In this document: positions 12,840-62,912 of the stretch, in pieces | Layout: each line of letters starts with the position of its first letter | How positions within the stretch are numbered: position 1 is the stretch's first letter | NCBI RefSeq assembly: GCF_964019385.1 | Contig: NC_088646.1 | Coordinates: forward strand, 12,198,234 to 12,262,233 | Direction of reading: 5' to 3' | Origin: Sycon ciliatum | Lineage: Eukaryota; Porifera; Calcarea; Leucosolenida; Sycettidae | DNA length: 64,000 nucleotides | Program-made: the position numbers and the translations under genes | The notes under the pieces: generated by a model | What the model was told of the DNA's origin: nothing | The model's input: only the letters and a program-made list of their open reading frames with translations | Database searches by the model: none

Positions 12840-13637
12840 AAAGCCTTGGATGCATTGTGGGAAGAAACTTGAACGGCCATGAATGGGAAACTTCATGGAT
12901 GCTGCTGTTTGACACCGTTTGGCACAGTCCTGCAAAAAGAGTCCTTTTCTCCCTTTGGGATACCCTCGCCGTCCGCCTTGGTATCATCCAGGGTAACGAT
13001 CTACATCGTCATGTAAATAATATCCACTAGTAGATCCACTAGTACTTGTAGATCTACTAGTAGATCTACTATAATAAATAGTTTATAGTGACTACGGACG
13101 GCACCATGAGCCTACCAGCATTCAACCTTGGACAAACGATTTTCCAACTCGCCTGCATGTAGATCGACACTCTTCTTCTGAGCACTGACTGTGGTCAAAA
13201 GTTAGGAAAGATTGGATTGAAGACCTTGTTGCACATTCGATTGATCACGAGATCGATAGCTTACAACAATCATGTAAATCTCAGGCCACATACATGATCA
13301 GCTGATAATATTGATAAGCCCAGCACTCGCGAGTCAGAGAGAATTATAATTATAGAGACTACAAGTACAAGGTTGACATCCGGATATTTACAAGTAAGAG
13401 TTCTGCAAACACTGCTATTCTTTTCTTGGTTGCCCGACCTGGTTCCAACAGCAGTCGTGGACCAGAACTACTCGTCGAAGAAGAGCGAGTCGAAAGGGAA
13501 GGCTCGGATCAGCGATCGCTGGCCGCAGCGACTAGCTCGAGGCTTCAAGAAGAACTGTTTGAGTCCGTACGACTCGTACTAACAAACGGTGAAAGACAGG
13601 GTCCTGAGTCAGAGACTGAGGAAGGTCCGCAGGGGTC
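12840..13637. other. Upstream region of gene A, no gene seen
   Basis: Contains a short array of ATCCACTAGTAG-like repeats near 13020-13080. The open frame at 13373-13674 is probably 5' UTR of gene A. Confidence 0.5.
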
Positions 13638-16600
13638 ATGGCTGCCAAATCATCAGTCATTCAGCTGGCTGTAGTAGTGCTGTTGATAACTTTGGGAGTC
13701 GGTGGGCCTGTGGGAAGCCAACCAGCCTGCCTTGACGAGTTCGTGCTCCGCGGAAACAATCTGTACCCTGTAAGCAAAGCTGATGGTGAGCGTGTTGTAT
13801 CGCTAGGACCGAAAGACACTTGGCAAGATTGCCAGACGGCTTGCTCAAGTAGCAGCAAAGTCTGCAAGTCCTGGACATACTTTTTCGCAAATGCCAGCAA
13901 AGCACTGCGACAGAGCTGCTTTGGACGTACAGATGAGCACTGGGATCCTCAGCTCTCGGATTCAACAGTAGCCAGTGGCGTGAACTGCAAATCTCCACCA
14001 GCTACTGCTCTGCCTAATGCACCACCACCTAATGTTCAGTTCAGCTGGGACCACGTTCCTGTGTTCATTCATACATCGAACACAACTGGACCATTCAACG
14101 ACCAGGCATTGCAGATCATGGCCAAGTTTCCAATTGTCACAATTGAGAAGTATCAAGGTCCCAACAGTGGATATCATTATCCTGCTGAGAAATGGGTGTG
14201 CTGTGAGGAAGATCGCATTGTGGATACGTTGAAATCTGTGAAAAAGATCAACCCAAACATCACAGGAATCTTCTACTACAACATGGTTCTGGACTTTCCA
14301 CAGTATCGATTGCACGAGAACTTTGCCAAGAACGAGAGCTGGTGGCTTCATGACCAACACGGCAATGTAGTACGCGTTGCAGTAAGTACACAACTTCACA
14401 ACTGTTGTAGAGGGATGGTGCAACTCGGGGGGGGGGGGGGGGGGACTTCGCCAAACAACAAGGTACAACTTCCACAATGTTAGTTTGTTGCAACCCGGGG
14501 AGGTGAGGGGGGGGGGGGGGATGACTTCGCCAAACAACAAGGTACAACTTCCACAATGTTAGTTTGTTGCAACCCGGGGAGGTGAGGGGGGGGGGGGGGG
14601 GTAGAGGGATGATATGACTATGAATAAGACATGTATAACTGTTAGCAGACCGACATCAGTCCGATTGCCTTTATGTGAAGTTCCAAAATCATAAATCATC
14701 CGCACTGATGCTAGCATTGCAGGATAGACATTTGATGGGCACACACACCTCTATACCACAGAGAAGTAATGTGCTAGTCCCTGGGCCATAGCGCGTCATG
14801 TAAGTAAAGAAGCATCCATGTATCTCTAATATAAGCGCAGTCTCTTGTAGAAACCCAGTCTCTGTTATAAGCGCACTCCAAGAGGGCTTCGAAGATATAC
14901 AAGCGCAATCTCCAATATAAGCGCAGGGCCTATAATGGAGAAGTGTATGGCGGATCATGTCATGCATGTTTGACGACCACAGTATCACATACACACATGT
15001 TATGGCGCAGGTCTGTGATCCCCGAGATAAAAATGTACAGACTCAGTATACCAGGAAGTGCAACACTGCATTCAGGGTACCCGGTGGGAAATTTTGTGCT
15101 ACTGGTACTTCAAAGTATAAGAAAAAATAATTGTACAAGATGGTTGACACAATCATAAACCCAGTCTCTAGTAGAAGCCCAGTCTCCAATATAAGCCCAG
15201 GGTCAGGACTGGTTGAAAAATGATACACCGTATTATCTCTAATATAAGCACGGTCCTTTATTTTTTCAATTCACCTCCGGCCCGTGCTATTAATGGAGAC
15301 GTTCCTTTATTGGAGACTGTTCCATTATTATTTCAACCTCATTTCAGACGCATGTTGCCATGCCAAATTTATATGTCAGACACACACATTTCAGGGTTTT
15401 TTCCGCCGGTACAGATAATGAATTTACACAGTGTGCTTATAATGGAGACTGAGCACTTTATTTTTTGAATGCCGCCCCAAGGTGTTCTATTATTGGAGAC
15501 TGTGCTTATATTAGAGATAATACGGTAAGCCCAGGGCTTATAATGGAGATAATACGGTAGTCTTTTGGTTTGCATCAGGGCGTCGTAACATGATCTAGGG
15601 AGACTGCATGAGAGCCCTTATTCCATAACAGTTAGCACACGGACATACAGGTACTCAATCTGCGGACAGAACTGTTTCGTCCTTTGTGGACTCATCAGCG
15701 CAGCACAGAGAAAATGAGGCCGAACCTGATAGCAATGAAAAATAAAATTTCCAAAGCCAGATTTAAACCAGGCCCGAAAAATCCTTGCCAGAGTGCTCAA
15801 ACCGAAAAGTCAGTGAGCTCTGCGTAACGCAAACAGCAAAGGCACTGCCCCGCATGAGCGTGCTCAACTGCTACAAGAGCAGGAGCGAAATACTCATACA
15901 GTAAAACCCGGTTTAAGCGACCTCCCCCCCCTCCCCCCCCCCCTCCCCCCTCCCCCCCCACGGGGCAAGCAAAAGCGGTCGTTAAAGCCAGGTGGTGTTT
16001 AGAACCAGGCCCCACTGTGTGTGTGTGTAGAACTGTTCGTGCATGGAAAAACGGTCGTTAAGAGCAGGTGGTCGCTAAACCCAGAGGCCGCTTACACCAG
16101 GTTTTACTGTACAGGTGTAAATGTGAGCTTCGATCCCAGATTTGGAAGTAAGTTTAGGTCAAGTGATCCATGGTGAATGCAAGCTAGTAGTAGTAGTATT
16201 TATTATTTGACTAGGGGAGTCCCAACAGGCATGGCCTTGTTGCAGGGAACCCTAGGTAAGCTAGACTTGACCGTGATTACACTTCACAGCAGTAATCTGC
16301 TGACCCAATTGCCAAGTGCAGCTCATGGCCAGCCATGTCATACGGCACCAGCGTGTATATTAGTACACCGGCCTAGCTCCAGCCAGGGGCGACTAGAAGG
16401 AGCAGTCTGGGACCTCAACCCACCAAATCATCCACATTACACTGAGTCTTGTAGGGTTAGCGTAGCATCGGGATTTCAGGTTGTCCAGCCCAATGGAATG
16501 CTTGACCGGACATGAGTCATATTGACGAATTGCCCTGTCGTGCTCAAATTGGGCGAGTCCGCCGTTTCAAAAATAAGGTCCTGCGGTCATGTCTGTGCCT

Positions 16601-19689: not shown

Positions 19690-22230
19690 GCACATAGCCA
19701 CATACCTATGGGAACACTACCGTGGTTCCCTGTCGTTTGCTCAGCGTCGACGGGTGCAGAAACTGTGTCCCCGACCGGACGTGGAAGAAATGAAACGTCC
19801 ACGAGTGGACCCTTTCCTGTCAGATGTCCAGGGCCTGGCCAATGCCAAGAGGGCTGATCGAATGCTGGCCAGCATCCAACAGGTCACGGATAATTTCCGT
19901 CCCCTGACCGCGCTCTGGGCGGCGATTGAGCAGGGCCGGCCGGTCCACGAACTGACAGAGCTCGTCCAGATGGCGATCATTATGACGGGCGACGCCTCTA
20001 ACGTGTTATCTGAGACACGCCGTCAGCGCCTCCTGGCAGCGCTGCCGAAGAGATGCCCAAAGAGCCTACTGCAGGACTTTTTTTTTGAACTTCGTTTTAC
20101 TTCGCAAAATCCAAACGGGAATTTCTTCCCAATGACAAGGTAGCTAAGATCTTAAGAGGGAAGAAAAAAGAGAGAGAGAGAAAAACGGAAAGAAAAAGTG
20201 TGTATGCACTGGAAATGATAGTCAGCTGGAAATCGGATCCATTGTCAAACATGGCATTTGCTACTGTTGCATGTAGTCAACGAGCAATTGCGTAGGGTAC
20301 TGCTGCAGCTTTGAAGGTCTCCAGCGTTGTGCTGGAGCGGACGTCTCCAGGTAATCTTTTTCTTACTTGCATCCTTCCGGTGATCTCCTCTTCGGTGATG
20401 GCTTTTCTCGGGAGTGCAAACGCAAGTGCCAGGAAATGGATGTATTCCAGCCACGGCCTTCTGGGCGGCGCCCGGGAACCGCACAGGACCGGTCGCACCG
20501 TGCCCGTCCTGACCGTTTTCTGGTCGCTCCATGTACCAGTCGGACTCAGTTCGGTTCCACTCTTACGACAGGGCTGGACGAGGCCTCGTCACCCGCCAGC
20601 CTGAGGAGCATTTCCGCCAGCCAGCAAAAAACGGCCAAGGCCAGCCCTTTCGCGGGCGCCCGCTAGGTCGTTGACAACCTCCCCCCATGCGTGGCTGCCT
20701 CACGGAAACCCCTACCCCCAAGGTAGCGGGCTGATTGGAGCATTTTGCGACAGCCTGGTGAGACCTAACGCAGGATGCGTGGGTGTTGAAGACCGTCTCA
20801 GGGTACCGCTTAGACCTCCAAACTGCACCTTGCCAGCGGTCCGCTCCGACAGAGATGCGGTTCCCTCCCAAAAAATGCACCACCGTCCACCAGAAATAAA
20901 GGATTTCTTATCCAAAGGTGCAATTCGACCAGTGAGCCCATTTCCCGGCCAGTTCGTGAGCCTGCTATTCACCGTACCCAAGAAGAGTACCACCGCCGAA
21001 CGTCCCGTAATCAACCTCCGCCACCTGAACGAGCATGTGCGGTACGAACACTTCCAGATGGAGGGTCTCCACCTTGTTCCCCTGTCCGTCCGAGAAGGCA
21101 ACTGGCTAACAAAGCTAGACCTCAAGGACGCGTACTTCACCGTGCCGATCCATCCTCAGCACCGCCGGCTCCTGCGCTTCAGTTGGGAGGGCCAACTCTA
21201 CGAGTTTCAGTGTCCGCCATCCGGCCTGTCCAGCGTCCCCGGGTGTTCGCCAAGTTGATGAAGGTCCCGATCAGTGTTCTTCATCGTCAGGGCATTCGTC
21301 TTATCCTGTATCTCGACGACCTTCTCCTGATTGCCGAGTCACAGCCGGCTGCCGTGCTACAGACGCAGCAGGCCATCCAACTCCTAGAATCTCTGGGTTC
21401 AGTAATCGATCGGAAGAAGTCCATTCCCGAGCCTACGCAACAGATCAGGTTCTTAGGATTTCAGTTGAACTATGTGGCCATGACGACGTCTGTGCCGATC
21501 GACAGGGCGCGGAAACTCCAGCAGGAGTGCCACCGAGCCCTGCCCCAGCCCTATCTGTCCATCCGTTCATTGGCCTCACTCCTGGGCAGGATGGTTGCGC
21601 GCTCCCCAGGCATGTTTCTGGCTCCACTGCAATTCCGCTACCTTCAGCAATTGAAGATTGCAGCCCTTCGTCGCCATCAGAGCTACCTTGCCATGGTACA
21701 CCGGACGCCAGAAGCCAGGATGGAGTTGGCGTGGTGGTCAGCAGATCTAGAGACTTGGAACGGTCGCTTTTTTTTCTCAAACCTCCCACTCAGCTCACCA
21801 TATTCTCCAATGTGTCCCTGCTCGGCTGGGGAGCGGTGTGCGGCACGACGAGTACCGGGGGTCAATTGTCCCCTACCGAGGCCAATCTCCACATCAATGC
21901 AATGGAATTGATCGCTGCCTCATTTGCGGTGAAAGCCTTTCATCACGTACTGGGCCTCGTACCGTCCCCAGCACATCAAGTTGTTGATCGACAACACGAC
22001 AGCCGTCAGCTACATCAACCGCCTAGGCGGCACGCATCCCCGCCTCCTGTCCCAGATCGCTTGCAATCTCTGGAGATGGGCGGTCCAACACAATATAGGT
22101 ATCCAGGCGGAATATGTGCCGAGCGAGGAGAACCTAGTGGACCATCCTTCTCGGGGCTCCCTCTCCGAGTCCGGCGACTGGCGCCTGGACCCTACTGCTG
22201 CTGTTGTTGTTGAAATCATTTCTCCAGTTT
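19690..22230 (+). pseudogene. DIRS-type retrotransposon relic (gag-like, RT, RNase H)
   Basis: Gag-like pieces lie at 19740-20090 (VDPFLSDVQG, DNFRPLTALWAAIEQG) and 20367-20660 (LFGDGFSRECKR). Reverse transcriptase runs 20860-21750 across two frames: PVINLRHLNEHVRYEHFQME, KLDLKDAYFTVPIHPQHRRL, then LILYLDDLLLIAES with an intact YLDD. RNase H follows in shifted frames (SLLGWGAVC, HINAMELIAASFAVKAFHHV, then IDNTTAVSYINRLGG and SEENLVDHPSRG). The first RNase H aspartate appears lost (FSNVS instead of the usual TDAS). No tyrosine recombinase, methylase or terminal repeats were found. At least three frameshifts and an A/G-rich insertion near 20090-20310 break it, so it cannot be active. Confidence 0.85.
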
Positions 22231-26954: not shown

Positions 26955-26962
26955 GTTCATAC

Positions 26963-26994
26963 CAGGGAGTCGTCAATTATTTGACGACTCCCTG
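26963..26994. mobile_element. 32-bp hairpin element with perfect 8-bp target duplication
   Basis: CAGGGAGTCGTCAA, four bases, then the exact complement ending CTCCCTG. GTTCATAC stands on both sides (26955-26962 and 26995-27002). CAGGG ends and 8-bp duplications are hAT-like. Confidence 0.8.
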
Positions 26995-27075
26995 GTTCAT
27001 ACTCTTTCAACTGATGTAGCACTCGATATGAATTTACAAATTCGATTTTCAGGGATTTTACGACCAGGCTGCCCC

Positions 27076-27194
27076 CTTAAACTTTAAAGTAGGAAGGGAG
27101 CGTCTCAGCTTCCTCGGACCACGACCATTTGACTCAGCACCCCGAAGACTACAACTGGTGAAAGTTTGATTTTAGCCTTAACTTCCCCTTTAAC
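27076..27194. mobile_element. Right end of the TTAA-flanked foldback family
   Basis: Matches 50690-50810, including GGAAGGGAGCGTCTCAGC, and ends CTTCCCCT-TTAA. Only this end is present. Confidence 0.8.
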
Positions 27195-27542
27195 GGTTTC
27201 TGCAGAAGCGGGAAAACTCGGCCTTTGGCCAAGTCTCACGCGAACCGCGAAATGTGTTTACTTACGATATCACGTAAACAAGACCTTACTTGATAAGCAA
27301 CATAACAGCACGCGGACGTTGAAAATTCTGCGTTCACTTCACGACCACCATCGTTGCGCTGTGCGGCCCACCATGTTCATTCCAAAACAGCAACAAGAGG
27401 TTCCTTCGGAGTTCACCTTCTCTTCTTCTGTCAAGAAAATTGTCCTGTACTCCTACTGACGGTCTAGCAGTATCATCAGTGTGTCGTCCAGAGCGTCTAA
27501 TAAAACTGACTGCGCAGGTATGATACTGCTACTATACATATA

Positions 27543-27753
27543 CTGTTGTGGACATGGAAATCCGGCCACACGTCTAGCGGCCCCAGGGCGCTGCCGCCGT
27601 GGCCAAGCGACACTTACACACATACATTTATGCGCTGCAGCCCGGTGGTCGCATCGGATCAACATGATTGACTTTGTGCACCGCACGCAGCGTTCTGTAC
27701 GCGCTGAGGGCGCCAACCCCAGTCACTTGACTGGATTTCCATGTCCGCTACAG
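27543..27753. mobile_element. Pogo-like MITE
   Basis: CTGTTGTGGACATGGAAATCC and, inverted, CTGTAGCGGACATGGAAATCC. TA at 27541-27542 and 27754-27755. Confidence 0.8.
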
Positions 27754-27962
27754 TAGTTCAAGTACTACTACAATGTCATGTACAAGTAGCAAGAGTAGTC
27801 ACACTCCTGCGAGTACTGAAGCCATGAACTGAAGGTACAAGAGAGGAGCTAGACTAGAGAGAAAACCTTCTGAAAAGGGAAACCAAGCAAGGAGGCGTCC
27901 AGGTAGAAAAGGTACTACTACACACATGTGTACTAGTACAATGTAGTACTACTGTACTATGA

Positions 27963-28317
27963 TATAACCTAACCGTGACTGGTTAAAAACCAGTATTAGA
28001 TAAACCTTGTTATGAGTTCACGAGATTGACAGCATGAAACAAGGTGGAGGACACTGTGTTCGGAAACAGTGACCTTACTACAACCTTCCGCGGTTGGCAG
28101 AGCCCTAACCATGCTAACACCCTAGCATAATGAGGGTCAGAACCGGGTGCGATACCCATATGGTTCAAATCAGGGAGTAGTAAAATACAATTTTACTACT
28201 CCCTGGTTCAAATGGTCCGCAGGGACCGGGGCTCTGCCAACCGCGGAAGGTTGTAGTAAGGTCACTGTTTCCGAACACAGTGTCCTCCACCTTGTTTCAT
28301 GCTGTCAATCTAACAAT
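27963..28317. mobile_element. Foldback element family F, copy 1
   Basis: Arms around GACAGCATGAAACAAGG and ACACTGTGTTCGGAAACAG (28026-28115 and 28217-28315) are reverse complements. The left flank CCTAACCGTGACTGGTTAAAAA is shared with copy 2 at 42986. It contains the 35-bp hairpin insertion. Confidence 0.8.
28171..28205. mobile_element. 35-bp hairpin element with perfect 8-bp target duplication
   Basis: CAGGGAGTAGTAAAAT, ACA, then the exact complement. GTTCAAAT on both sides (28163-28170 and 28206-28213). Copy 2 of family F, read in inverse orientation near 43513-43530, has a single GTTCAAAT and no hairpin, so the insertion is seen directly. Confidence 0.9.
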
Positions 28318-30059: not shown

Positions 30060-30377
30060 AAAAAAGCCATGGCGACGCGACGTGCACGCCACAACTTGCA
30101 CAAGTCACCGATGCACCGTGTAGTACTTACTAGTACTGGTCGGTCCTTCGAAATAATCATTATTTTTGGTTGGGGTAAAAGAAAGGTTGACACTTTTCTG
30201 GACTTCACTACTTTCTAGCGGCTGGCAATCGACGTAGACCAAGGTCCAAGGCTGCAAGGGCACGCTCGAGGAACTGCCTTCTCTTTCAAGTCTTTGACTT
30301 ATCTCCCTCTCTCGCTCTGAGTGAATCACGCCCCCCTCCCTCCTTTGGCAACTGCAACCTCAGTCTCAGCAGCAGTC
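30060..30377 (+). promoter_or_regulatory. Duplicated upstream region of gene B
   Basis: Shares long stretches with 39566-39824 upstream of gene D (AAAGAAAGGTTGACACTTTT, GCGGCTGGCAATCGAC, CAAGGGCACGCTCGAGGAAC). The two genes therefore probably have the same promoter. No core element is recognisable. Confidence 0.5.
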
Positions 30378-32107
30378 ATGACCATCTCAAACTCGAGATG
30401 TATCCAGACAATAGCATTGCTACCTTTGCTAATGCTGTTGACTGATTCTATTGGTGCACGCGGTATGTGTTTCGACGAATTCGTTATCAGCGGGGATAAT
30501 CTTTATCCAAGCAACCAGCCCGACGGAAAGAGAATTGTGCTAGTCCCGGGAAAGACAGAAACGTGGAAGCAATGTCAGAGTGCTTGTGTCAACGGCACCA
30601 CGGCATGCCATTCGTGGACACTCTTCTTCGAGAATGCCACCCAGGGTCTAGCGAACAACTGCTACTTGCGCACGGATGACTACTGGAATCCGCAGTTCGT
30701 TCATGATCAGAAGCTGCTGACCGTGGCAAGTGGCGTGAATTGTAAATCTCCACCAGCTACTGCTCTGCCTAATGCACCGCCACCCAATGTTCAGTTCAGC
30801 TGGGACCACGTTCCTGTGTTCATTCATACATCGAACACAACTGGGCCATTCAACGAACAGGCATTACAGATCATGGCCAAATTTCCTATTGTCACAATTG
30901 AGAAGTATCAAGGTCCCAACAGTGGATATCATTATCCTGCTGAGAAATGGGTGTGCTGTGAGGAAGATCGCATTGTGGATACGTTGAAATCTGTGAAAAA
31001 GATCAATCCAAACATCACAGGAATCTTCTACTACAACATGGTTCTGGACTTTCCACAGTATCGATTGCACGAGAACTTTGCCAAGAACGAGAGCTGGTGG
31101 CTTCATGATCAATTTGGCAATGTCGTCAAAGTTGGGGTGAGTGAGGTCTTCAGCACCTTTCAAGCTGAACCTGTTTATTGCTTTGTAAACGGGAGATCAG
31201 TCATTGATCAGTGCACGTCAAGTACCCATAACTGGATAGGCAAAGTACCCATAACTGGATAGGCATTCATTATCCTTGGCCAGCATACCAGAAATACTGG
31301 GGAGGGGGGGGGGGGATATGGTGGTGTAATTTGACTGTAAGCAGTGTACAATTGCAGGTCAAGGTCAAGTTTTGTAGCTGGCCCAAATCCCATTGTTTCT
31401 TGTTCTGGCATTGCTTCATGTAGGGCGATGGGCACAACACTCAAGACCTGCTAGTGTATGATACGACGCAGGAAGCCGTCTCGGAACTCTTCATGCACGC
31501 CTGCCTCGACCTTGTCCCCAGCGGAGCGGTGGATGGGTGTTTCATCGACCGACCCGTTGACGGACTGCCTCACCAGAACATGACTACTGACATGAGCGTG
31601 AATCTGATGGCGTCACACGTCACCACGCTTCAGGCGTTCCAGGAGCAGCTGAAACGCGGCCCGCTCATTGCCAACCATGCATACGGCATGCCGGGCGTCA
31701 ACGCTGCAATGATCGAGGGCTTCAAACCTACAGAGGAGAACATCATGCTCCTTCAATGGACTGCCGACCGTGGTAAGCTTGTAGAAGCACACATGGCTGG
31801 TGGTGATTGCACAACAGACGAGGGCATACAAGATCATCTTGCCGCCTTTCTTATCGGAGCTGGAAACTACTCCTACTTCGGCTGTGGGCCATGGTTCACT
31901 AGTACGAGTATAGACTCCCAGTGGAAAGCCTCCTATGACAAGCCACTTGGTGCCCCTCTCGGCCGACCTTCGAAGACGAAAAGTGTCTACACACGAAAAT
32001 TTGCCAGTGGCACCACTGTCCATTTTGACTGCTCCACCAACAAGGGTACGATTGACTGGGCAAAATCCCCAGAGATGAAGCAATATGCTGATGATCTTAT
32101 CTACTAG
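30378..32107 (+). CDS. Gene B: secreted PAN/Apple plus GHL15-like putative glycosidase
   Basis: Exons 30378-31136 and 31424-32107 join in phase 0 at the same place as in gene A (after FGNVVKVG) and give 480 residues. I chose the ATG at 30378 because it begins a good signal peptide (SRCIQTIALLPLLMLLTDSI) and is shared with gene D; an upstream in-frame ATG at 30321 would add 19 residues. PAN-like cysteines follow in CFDEF, WKQCQSAC and CHSWT. The GHL15-like part has FPIVTIEKYQG, DGCFIDRPVDG, IANHAYGMPGVNAAMIEGF and GKLVEAHM. Exon 2 opens GDGHNTQDLLVYDT. It is nearly identical to gene D over its whole length including intron ends, so the duplication is recent. Confidence 0.85.
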
Positions 32108-33161: not shown

Positions 33162-35942
<2,781 letters not shown>

Positions 35943-39565: not shown

Positions 39566-39824
39566 GCCATAGCGAAGCGAAGTGCACAAGTCACAGAGTC
39601 TGTCCTTCGAAGGTGAACATTTTGGTTGCGGTAAAAAGAAAGGTTGACACTTTTCTGGATTTCATTACTTCTAGCGGCTGGCAATCGACTTAGACCGAGG
39701 ACAATGTCCAAGGCTGCAAGGGCACGCTCGAGGAACGGTTTTGACTCCCTCTCTCGCTCTCAGTGAATCACGTCCCCCCCCCCCCCATCCTTTTGTTATT
39801 GCAACCACAACGGCAGCAGCAGTC
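39566..39824 (+). promoter_or_regulatory. Duplicated upstream region of gene D
   Basis: Counterpart of 30060-30377, with small deletions. A C13 run lies at about 39774. Confidence 0.5.
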
Positions 39825-41606
39825 ATGACCATCTCAAACTCGAGATGCATCCAGACAATAGCATTGCTTCCTTTGCTAATGCTGTTGACTGATTCTATTG
39901 GTGCACGCGGTATGTGTTTCGACGAATTCGTGATCAGCGGGGATAATCTTTATCCAAGCAACCAGCCCGACGGAAAGAGAATTGTGCTAGTCCCGGGAAA
40001 GACAGAAACGTGGAAGCAATGTCAGAGTGCTTGTGTCAACGGCACCACGAGATGCCATTCGTGGACACTCTTCTTCGAGAATGCCACCCAGGGTCTAGCG
40101 AACAACTGCTACTTGCGCACGGATGACTACTGGAATCCGCAGTTCGTTCACGGTCAGAAGCATCTGACCGTGGCAAGTGGCGTAAATTGTAAATCTCCAC
40201 CAGCTACTGCTCTGCCTAATGCACCGCCACCCAATGTTCAGTTCAGCTGGGACCACGTTCCTGTGTTCATTCATACATCGAACACAACTGGACCATTCAA
40301 CGACCAGGCATTACAGATCATGGCCAAGTTTCCAATTGTCACAATTGAGAAGTATCAAGGTCCCAACAGTGGATATCATTATCCTGCTGAGAAATGGGTG
40401 TGCTGTGAGGAAGATCGCATTGTGGATACGTTGAAATCTGTGAAAAAGATCAACCCAAACATCACAGGAATCTTCTACTACAACATGGTTCTGGACTATC
40501 CACAGTATCGATTGCACGAGAACTTTGCCAAGAACGAGAGCTGGTGGCTTCATGATCAATTTGGCAATGTCGTCAAAGTTGGGGTGAGTGAGGTCTTCAA
40601 CACGTTTCATGCTGAACCTGTTCATTGCTTTGCAACCAAGAGATCAGTCATTGATCAGTGCCACTTTTTGTTCACTGGATAGACACTGAGTATTCTTTGC
40701 CAGCACAGTGCTGGAGAGGGGGTATGGTGGTAGCACAGTGCTGGGGAGGGGGTATGGTGGTAGCACAGTGCTGGGGAGGGGGTATGGTGGTGTAATAATG
40801 ACTGTGAGCAGTGTACATGTACTTCATTTGGAGGTGTCAGGTTTTTTTGTAGCTGGCCCAAATCCCATTGTTTCTTCTTGTGGCATTGTTTCTTGTTATG
40901 GCATTGGTTTGTGTAGATTAATGCTGGCGCCCACAACACGAAAGACCTGCTAGTGTATGATACGACGCAGGAAGCCGTCTCGGAACTCTTCATGCACGCC
41001 TGCCTCGACCTTGTCCCCAGCGGAGCGGTGGATGGGTGTTTCGTCGACCGACCCGTTGACGGACTGCCTCACCAGAACATGACTACTGACATGAGCGTGA
41101 ATCTGATGGCGTCACACGTCACCACGCTTCAGGCGTTCCAGGAGCAGCTGAAACGCGGCCCGCTCATTGCCAACCATGGATACGGTATGCCGGGCGTCAA
41201 TGCTGCAATGATCGAGGTTTTCAGACCTACCGAGGAGGACATCATGCTCCTTCAATGGACTGCCGACCGTGGTAAGCTTGTAGAAGCACACATGGTTGGT
41301 GGTGATTGCACAACGGATGAGGGCATACAAGATCATCTTGCCGCCTTTCTTATCGGAGCTGGAAACTACTCCTACTTCGGCTGTGGGCCATGGTTCACTA
41401 GTACGAGTATAGACTCCCAGTGGAAAGCCTCCTATGACAAGCCACTTGGTGCCCCTCTCGGCCGACCTTCAAAGACGAAAAGTGTCTACACACGTAAATT
41501 TGCCAGTGGCACCACTGTCCATTTTGACTGCTCCACCAATAAGGGTACGATTGACTGGGCAAAATCCCCAGAGATGAAGCAATATGCTGATGATCTTATC
41601 TACTAG
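39825..41606 (+). CDS. Gene D: secreted PAN/Apple plus GHL15-like putative glycosidase
   Basis: Exons 39825-40583 and 40917-41606 give 482 residues. It is almost identical to gene B: first exons have equal length (759 nt) and only scattered changes such as TTRCHSW for TTACHSW. The exon 2 start differs: INAGAHNTKDLLVYDT replaces GDGHNTQDLLVYDT, because the acceptor lies six bases further out. Motifs: FPIVTIEKYQG, DGCFVDRPVDG, IANHGYGMPGVNAAMIEVF, GKLVEAHM. The conserved GHG/GDGH motif at the exon 2 start of A, B and C is altered here, which could matter if it contributes to the active site. Confidence 0.85.
40703..40792. repeat. 30-bp minisatellite, 3 copies, gene D intron
   Basis: Unit GCACAGTGCTGGGGAGGGGG plus TATGGTGGTA. 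Gene B has one related unit at the equivalent site. Confidence 0.95.
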
Positions 41607-42985: not shown

Positions 42986-43745
42986 TTATAACCTAACACT
43001 GGTTAAAAACCAGTATTAGGGCATGTTCGATTGTACGAATCCATCAGCCCCGGACCCGGATTCGCCAAATTTGTGCATGTTCGATTGTACGAATCCGGAT
43101 CCCGAGAGCACGGATTCGGATCCAGTCAACCCACCTCCCAGAGACGGATTCGACGGATTCATTTCGATAGTACGACTTGTATCTACTCAAAACTCGCAAT
43201 ATGCGTACACTAGGTCAAGAGTTTACCACAACGCGTACAGATACTACGGGATGAGCTGTAGCAACGCGGTTGCTAAGGCCTTGAAACGGATTATCGGTTG
43301 TGCACATTCGATTGTATCCGTCCGATCGAAGTGACCTGGTCGGCGGGGATCGGGATCCAGTTTCTACAATCGAATGCAGCCTTAGATAAACCATGTTATA
43401 GTTCACGCAATTGTTAGATTGACAGCATGAAACAAGTTGAGGACACTGTGTTCGGAAACAGTGAATACTACATAAACAACCTTCCGCGGTTGGCAGAGCC
43501 CCGGTCCCTGCGGACCATTTGAACCATATGGGTATCGCACCCGGTTCTGACCCTCATTATGCTAGGGGGTTAGGAGACTACTCCTGATGTCGTCTTGTTT
43601 TCTTCGCTCTTTTCTTTAACTTGTATAAAGACTTCTTTTTCTTTTTCTTTTTCTTCCAACTTCTGCCCACCGCGGAAGATTGTAGTAAGGTCACTGTTTC
43701 CGAACACAGTGTCCTCCACCTTGTTTCATGCTGTCAATCTAACAA
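42986..43745. mobile_element. Foldback element family F, copy 2
   Basis: Same ends and arms as 27963-28317 (ACACTGTGTTCGGAAACAG, CCTTCCGCGGTTGGCAGAGC), with the insertion at 43019-43381 and a CT-rich stretch replacing part of the right arm. Confidence 0.8.
43019..43381. mobile_element. Harbinger-like MITE with TTA target duplication
   Basis: Ends GGGCATGTTCGATTGTACGA and, inverted, GGCTGCATTCGATTGTAGAA. TTA at 43016-43018 and 43382-43384. Copy 1 of the host element has a single TTA at 27996-27998 and no insertion. A 3-bp TTA duplication is typical of PIF/Harbinger. One TIR-like motif recurs internally near 43076. Confidence 0.85.
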
Positions 43746-44087
43746 TTAGACTCTACGTGTATGTCAGTGATATTTGATCTGGAGACTCCTGAATGAAGAA
43801 TAATATAATTATCGAATGAAGACCAAAACAGTCAGTACTTATTCAGCATTGTAGACCGTGATGAAGGAGGGTGTGAAAAATGACACCTACTGCGAGACAG
43901 GCAGTTGTCATTTGAAGGTAGGGTACCCTAGGGTATGCACACCCGGGTAGATCTACCCTCTGACTGGCTACGGTGGCGCTGGGGTTCATTCATCAGCTCG
44001 AAGGCAGAAAATCATTTTGCTGTTCGTCGCACCTTCGGGCTTCACTCAGACAGCGATCAGCCTGAAACTGAGGAAGATTGGAAAAAC

Positions 44088-51344: not shown

Positions 51345-62912
<11,568 letters not shown>

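Follow-up and report, generated by a model that had tools for sequence, protein, structure and literature searches.

The window, meaning the whole 64,000-nt stretch analysed here, carries four related genes in a row (13620-14483, 30321-32107, 33185-35942 and 39675-41606) that have exon sequence in common; in the second, one frame matches the Pfam family GHL15 (hypothetical glycosyl hydrolase; E 1.4e-20). A reverse-transcriptase-like frame lies at 20814-21908, its RVT_1 score being below the Pfam cut-off, and a foldback with 87-bp arms, 100% complementary, around a 64-bp spacer occupies 53278-53515. The features relevant to this study are two very short hairpins, each bounded by 8-bp target duplications, and the foldbacks associated with one of them:

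26955-26962, no strand assigned: 8-bp target duplication left of hairpin A (GTTCATAC), read from the window sequence
26963-26994, no strand assigned: hairpin A, 32 bp, 14-bp arms, loop TTAT, with arm likeness to the CGTCAAATACC subfamily, from window sequence and scan
26995-27002, no strand assigned: 8-bp target duplication right of hairpin A (GTTCATAC), read from the window sequence
28023-28311, no strand assigned: foldback with 83-bp perfect arms, its spacer hosting the insertion of hairpin B or of its parent, from the inverted-repeat scan
28163-28170, no strand assigned: 8-bp target duplication left of hairpin B (GTTCAAAT), read from the window sequence
28171-28205, no strand assigned: hairpin B, 35 bp, 16-bp arms, loop ACA, AGTAAAATACC subfamily, from window sequence and scan
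28206-28213, no strand assigned: 8-bp target duplication right of hairpin B (GTTCAAAT), read from the window sequence
43517-43524, minus strand: empty target of hairpin B, a single ATTTGAAC in a related foldback, from flank alignment

With both duplications included, element A spans 26955-27002 and element B 28163-28213. Re-reading the window bore out the preliminary description of hairpins of 32 and 35 bp with perfect 8-bp duplications, perfect arms of 14 and 16 bp and loops of 3-4 bases, the measured values being 14 bp with TTAT for A and 16 bp with ACA for B. A scan of the window for exact 8-bp duplications around arms of at least 10 bp, up to 1500 bp, returned only hairpins A and B, and the identical scan of five block shuffles returned no match. 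A second exact copy of hairpin B occurs at one other genome site (C2:22466361). The foldback around hairpin B has perfect 83-bp arms at 28023-28105 and 28229-28311, and a related foldback at about 43409-43747 carries one ATTTGAAC at 43517-43524 without a hairpin at that spot. The flanks of hairpin B, once joined, agree with this site at 93 of 94 bases (1 mismatch), the duplication being present there once; the unoccupied homologous site proposed for the second hairpin is thereby located.

The genome searched was a single assembly of 538,412,230 bases (538 Mb). The genome-wide search suggested in the preliminary description, run with the pattern CAGGGAGTNGTN{2,20}ACNACTCCCTG, gave 3372 exact matches per strand at 24-42 bp, while backward-read pattern controls gave 0 matches in the genome; hairpins A and B are members of a very large family of thousands. 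Longer classes comprised 410 matches at 43-73 bp and 86 at 74-104 bp genome-wide, many of the matches listed in the latter consisting of two adjoining hairpins. The looser pattern CAGGGAGTN{0,13}ACTCCCTG recovered 1233 forms of 16-29 bp (backward control, 1), of which the shortest among the matches listed was 22 bp, with 30 exact copies of that 22-mer. One perfect 38-bp palindrome is present in 435 exact genome copies, and the single 19-bp arms CAGGGAGTNGTNNAATACC occur 2267 and 2355 times. With a gap of 2-22, the first pattern (CAGGGAGTNGTN to ACNACTCCCTG) had 0 matches in IMG/VR; across 257 Gb of prokaryote genomes it hit 25 stretches, all of which lacked an 8-bp duplication within 2 mismatches. 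A search for other tiny families in a 200-kb block (exact duplications, arms of at least 7) returned four members of the present family, a self-palindromic 69-bp hairpin and a tandem repeat. At C1:70398015-70398223, tandem 57-bp units consist of the AGTACAATACC 38-mer and a 19-bp spacer, forming a small satellite grown from a hairpin. A 79-bp foldback with CAGGGAGTCGTACTCAAACTAGGGAGG arms was found at C1:71664599 and C2:39925035, the two differing by one base, with relatives of 39-41 bp elsewhere. The titles and excerpts searched in the open-access literature made no mention of the family or of comparably short nuclear hairpins flanked by target duplications, and the listed matches to four arm 11-mers all concerned unrelated subjects.

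Target duplications accompany a large share of the family. Across 94 distinct copies, the 8-bp duplication is exact in 43 and within one mismatch in 59, against 0.55 and 1.26 expected from permuted flanks. The first-listed 50 distinct elements (24-42 bp) include 23 exact duplications and 33 with at most one mismatch; the corresponding figures are 13 and 17 for 22 elements of 22-28 bp from 20 loci chosen for shortness, and 7 and 10 for 12 hand-chosen from the 50 listed elements of 43-73 bp, one of which was measured as an 80-bp nested form. When the flanks of the first 40 elements were compared 3-10 bases away, 0 of 160 comparisons had one mismatch or fewer. The exact duplications follow the motif nTnnnnAn, with both T at position 2 and A at position 7 in 31 of 43, and at least one of them in all 43. 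This preference is hAT-like; P-element targets are exemplified by GTCCGGAC, and such a target would also fit. Nested copies with duplicated targets occur at C2:43026880, C3:21705097 and L108, the last with 7 extra bases. At L074 two different hairpins have entered one target, in the order GATAAAAC-45 bp-GATAAAAC-24 bp-GATAAAAC; at L074 300-324 and its neighbourhood, as at L081, at least two hairpins lie in the same or near-same 8-bp target, and copies look clustered.

The junction between the two arms was examined in the same material. The first-listed 50 hairpins comprise 36 distinct sequences, and 42 of the 50 can be read as a pair of arms from a single 19-nt subfamily. Among these 42, 10 joints are exact 19|19 fusions, 4 are otherwise blunt (two being one duplicated locus), 4 have overlaps of 3-4 nt, 2 have overlaps of 1-2 nt, and 22 contain filler or point changes, the filler class being inflated by point changes. 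Of all 94 copies, 79 fit in this way; their joints divide into 12 that are fused exactly at 19|19, 4 that are blunt elsewhere, 16 that overlap by 3-4 nt, 6 that overlap by 1-2 nt, and 41 with filler or changes. The commonest single form is exactly 19+19 (10 of 42 fitted in the 50-element sample), and shorter hairpins join at TAC, GTAC or TATA, giving 27, 22 and 24 bp, respectively. Random joins would show microhomology of 3-4 nt in 7.7% of cases. Where length played no part in the choice of sample, 4 of 20 filler-free joints show it, a difference that is only suggestive; the proportion rises to 16 of 38 filler-free joints over all 94 copies, a sample that includes short forms chosen by hand.

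Arm length was scored in 41 elements of 43-73 bp: of the 410, 50 were listed and 48 of these typed, and the 41 are those that lack inner ends. In their 82 arms the match ends at base 18 in 17, at base 19 in 20 and beyond in 6, an arm continuing into parent sequence also being scored as ending at 19. At least two elements have TACCATTATAATTATTAT in common beyond base 19. Chimeras of A and C arms occur at 30 places, compared with 3372 family matches and about 1200 chimeras expected from arm frequencies, a deficit on which the insertion of two separate molecules end by end, followed by their joining, was rejected. One locus, L076, holds a 21-bp insert, CAGGGAGTAGTACAATACC plus TG, corresponding to one full 19-nt tip and two bases of the other within an exact duplication. 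A scan for one-tip forms in 264 kb (a 200-kb block chosen where copies occur, plus the window) returned a low-complexity sequence as the sole candidate versus 5 two-tip forms, permuted-motif controls averaging 2.3 with a maximum of 50.

The genome very probably also contains longer elements bounded by the 19-bp ends of the hairpins, because inward-facing pairs of these ends lie about 2.1-2.6 kb apart. The first 100 listed arms, which cover C1:0-9.77 Mb, form such pairs, spaced 2148-2562 bp, at five places (C1:863610-865757, 897167-899326, 2697668-2699898, 5906592-5909153 and 9737057-9739225), and at 2.0-2.7 kb these arms formed neither outward nor same-strand pairs (0 of each). Below 2 kb there are four further inward pairs (594-1970 bp) and three outward pairs (1182-1931 bp), all of which include the arm of a known hairpin. 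A 56-bp composite, made of 19 bp and a doubled right end of 37 bp, is present at exactly two places, each with an exact but different duplication, and the right arms of the long pair at C1:5906592-5909153 show the same 18-bp offset.

Candidate transposases were sought in the P and hAT superfamilies. The genome contains 44 matches to the P-superfamily transposase family PF21787 (all 56 candidates scored), with reading frames of up to 1101 aa, none of the 44 lying inside the five long intervals; likewise, 0 of 150 listed PF05699 (hAT) places, 150 having been scored of 422 candidates, fall inside them. CAGGG tips are a hAT trait, and the hAT-like features described beforehand, namely these tips and the 8-bp duplications, were retained and extended by the nTnnnnAn targets (31 of 43). 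Four hAT loci were examined in the search for an autonomous element with the hairpin ends; TAGGG candidate ends were seen at three, no ends were identified at the fourth, and CAGGGAGT ends were absent from all four, so that a hAT parent found no support at these loci. Candidate hAT ends with 8-bp duplications were recorded at L130 (TAGGGGTGAAA, 12/16 matching), L132 (TAGGGCTGAAACGATT) and L121 (TAGGGCTGACCCGAAT), with frames of 673, 695 and 476 aa, respectively. hAT excision is not known to leave terminal repeat sequence at the donor site, whereas after P-type excision terminal-repeat tips can remain there.

Our main reading, to which we assign a probability of about 0.5, is that the hairpins are excision scars of a larger DNA transposon whose end tips were left behind. 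An element of about 2.15-2.56 kb with inverted ends CAGGGAGTNGTNNAATACC would insert and create the 8-bp duplication; on excision, one strand would be cut exactly at the terminus and the other about 19 nt further in, and because of this stagger the inverted-repeat tips would stay on the chromosome. The two tips would then be joined by the cell, whether fused directly (19+19, which yields the 38-bp hairpin), annealed where a few bases match, or bridged by filler. The product would be a tip-to-tip hairpin between the two copies of the duplication. The duplications, the empty site, the long-range paired ends and the joint classes on which this reading rests are observed; that each pair of ends delimits one element, that the cut has a 19-nt stagger and the polarity described, and that the transposase is of the P superfamily or P-like, we infer from them. 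As far as sequence can tell, the hairpin joints fit repaired breaks, and a double-strand cut placed 19 bp inside is likewise compatible with the blunt 19|19 joint being frequent. The 8-bp duplication is kept around the putative residual tips, as expected of a P-type footprint. Excision scars also fit the steep fall in counts (3372 at 24-42 bp, then 410 and 86), the pile-up of arm matches at 18-19 nt, where fillers set in, the near-absence of A/C chimeric arms, both arms being almost always of one subfamily, the 56-bp composite and the presence of P-superfamily transposases in the genome. Against them stand the absence of all 44 PF21787 and all 150 listed PF05699 places from the five long intervals, the 264 kb without a convincing one-tip scar, though resected breaks should often lose a tip, the 435 identical 38-mers, which amplification easily explains, the sequence common to at least two elements beyond base 19, and the modest microhomology excess in the sample not chosen by length. 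Excision assays with fly P and zebrafish Pdre2 may also be counted against scars, the available part of that report giving flanking deletions and not describing kept tips (PMC10983969).

A competing, less likely explanation makes the hairpins themselves mobile, as MITE-like units of 22-41 bp formed by two fused inverted repeats, for which a longer element would supply the transposase in trans. Movement might proceed by way of an extruded hairpin or cruciform, because bringing the ends together by looping is difficult in such a short duplex. Identical sequences do occur at unrelated sites with different duplications (at most one mismatch), the 38-mer at 6 sites, a 27-mer at 5, the 22-mer at 3 and a 24-mer at 2, as does the 56-bp composite at two; the 435 exact 38-mers and 30 exact 22-mers point the same way, and one-tip forms are nearly absent from the DNA examined. 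The repeated sequences are, however, those expected from exact 19|19 fusion or short microhomology, whereas other joints vary (36 distinct sequences among 50, partly by point change) and element B is found at only 2 places. Self-mobility also gives no reason for the arm pile-up at 18-19 nt, and the one-tip insert with an exact duplication at L076, which fits excision scars, should not be able to move by itself. Mobile hairpins would moreover be startling, because Hermes requires about 220 bp of each end in cells, according to the excerpt seen of PMC10368747. We nevertheless retain them as a minority explanation because of the scarce one-tip scars, the 435 38-mers, the sequence past base 19 and the P-type excision assays, and hold it equally improbable, at about one chance in four, that hairpins of 22-38 bp have been mobilised at thousands of sites in a nuclear genome, down to 22 bp with 11-bp ends. 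The tiny non-autonomous transposon of the preliminary description is accordingly upheld as regards a transposition-linked family, its duplications and its empty site, and is put in doubt, by the long end pairs and excision-like joints, as regards the hairpin being the mobile unit. Templated replication errors, named there as what could refute it, apply in part, locally copied arm sequence being found in several longer copies.

Somewhat less probable again is collapse in place, in which the interior of long elements was lost by aborted gap repair or hairpin deletion and the end sequences were left. The 79-bp foldback at two places, with 39-41-bp relatives resembling central deletions, and the sequence kept past base 19 in some elements speak for it. 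Gap-repair deletions should nonetheless end anywhere and produce many forms of 50-1000 bp, whereas the family thins out sharply beyond 42 bp and its arm matches are clustered at 18-19; in addition, scanning the 264 kb up to 6 kb for duplications within 2 mismatches returned tiny elements and two false pairs only (a 5556-bp pair without a CAGGGAGT end, and one that coupled hairpin A with hairpin B). The idea that the hairpins arose as palindromes by chance, or serve the host as an immobile regulatory palindrome, has a negligible probability: nothing was found in its favour, and it is refuted by exact duplications in 43 of 94 copies versus 0.55 expected, with the empty site of hairpin B and the zero counts of the backward-pattern controls also against it.

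If the hairpins are scars, they would form a genome-wide record of past excisions, from which the cut geometry of about 19 nt of an uncharacterised transposase and the end-joining habits of the host could be read from sequence alone; hairpins with perfect duplications could be mistaken for minimal MITEs. If they are self-mobile, the hairpins would define how small a transposon can be and rank among the shortest mobile DNAs. Among known systems, hAT MITEs are similar in their CAGGG tips, 8-bp duplications and nTnnnnAn targets (the Hermes motif), but the hairpins measure 22-41 bp, while Hermes, Tol2, Tag1 and Ac need about 100-220 bp per end in the excerpted account (PMC10368747). The GC clusters of yeast mitochondria (GC42) are likewise palindromes of about 40 nt at many sites with putative target duplications (PMC4478555), differing in being mitochondrial and in their 2-base AG target. 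Paramecium IESs are also very short transposon-related inserts, 93% being under 150 bp in the excerpt concerned (PMC3408717), but they undergo programmed excision and show a 10-bp length periodicity. P-element footprints have in common with the hairpins the 8-bp duplication and, if our main reading holds, a staggered cut inside the inverted repeat, which in the P element lies 17 bp inside a 31-bp repeat (PMC7776569); they differ in that the hairpin arms pile up at 18-19 nt rather than 17 bp, in the CAGGGAGT ends, and in the thousands of putative scars in one natural genome. As scars, the hairpins would be a genome-scale version of this already known footprint type.
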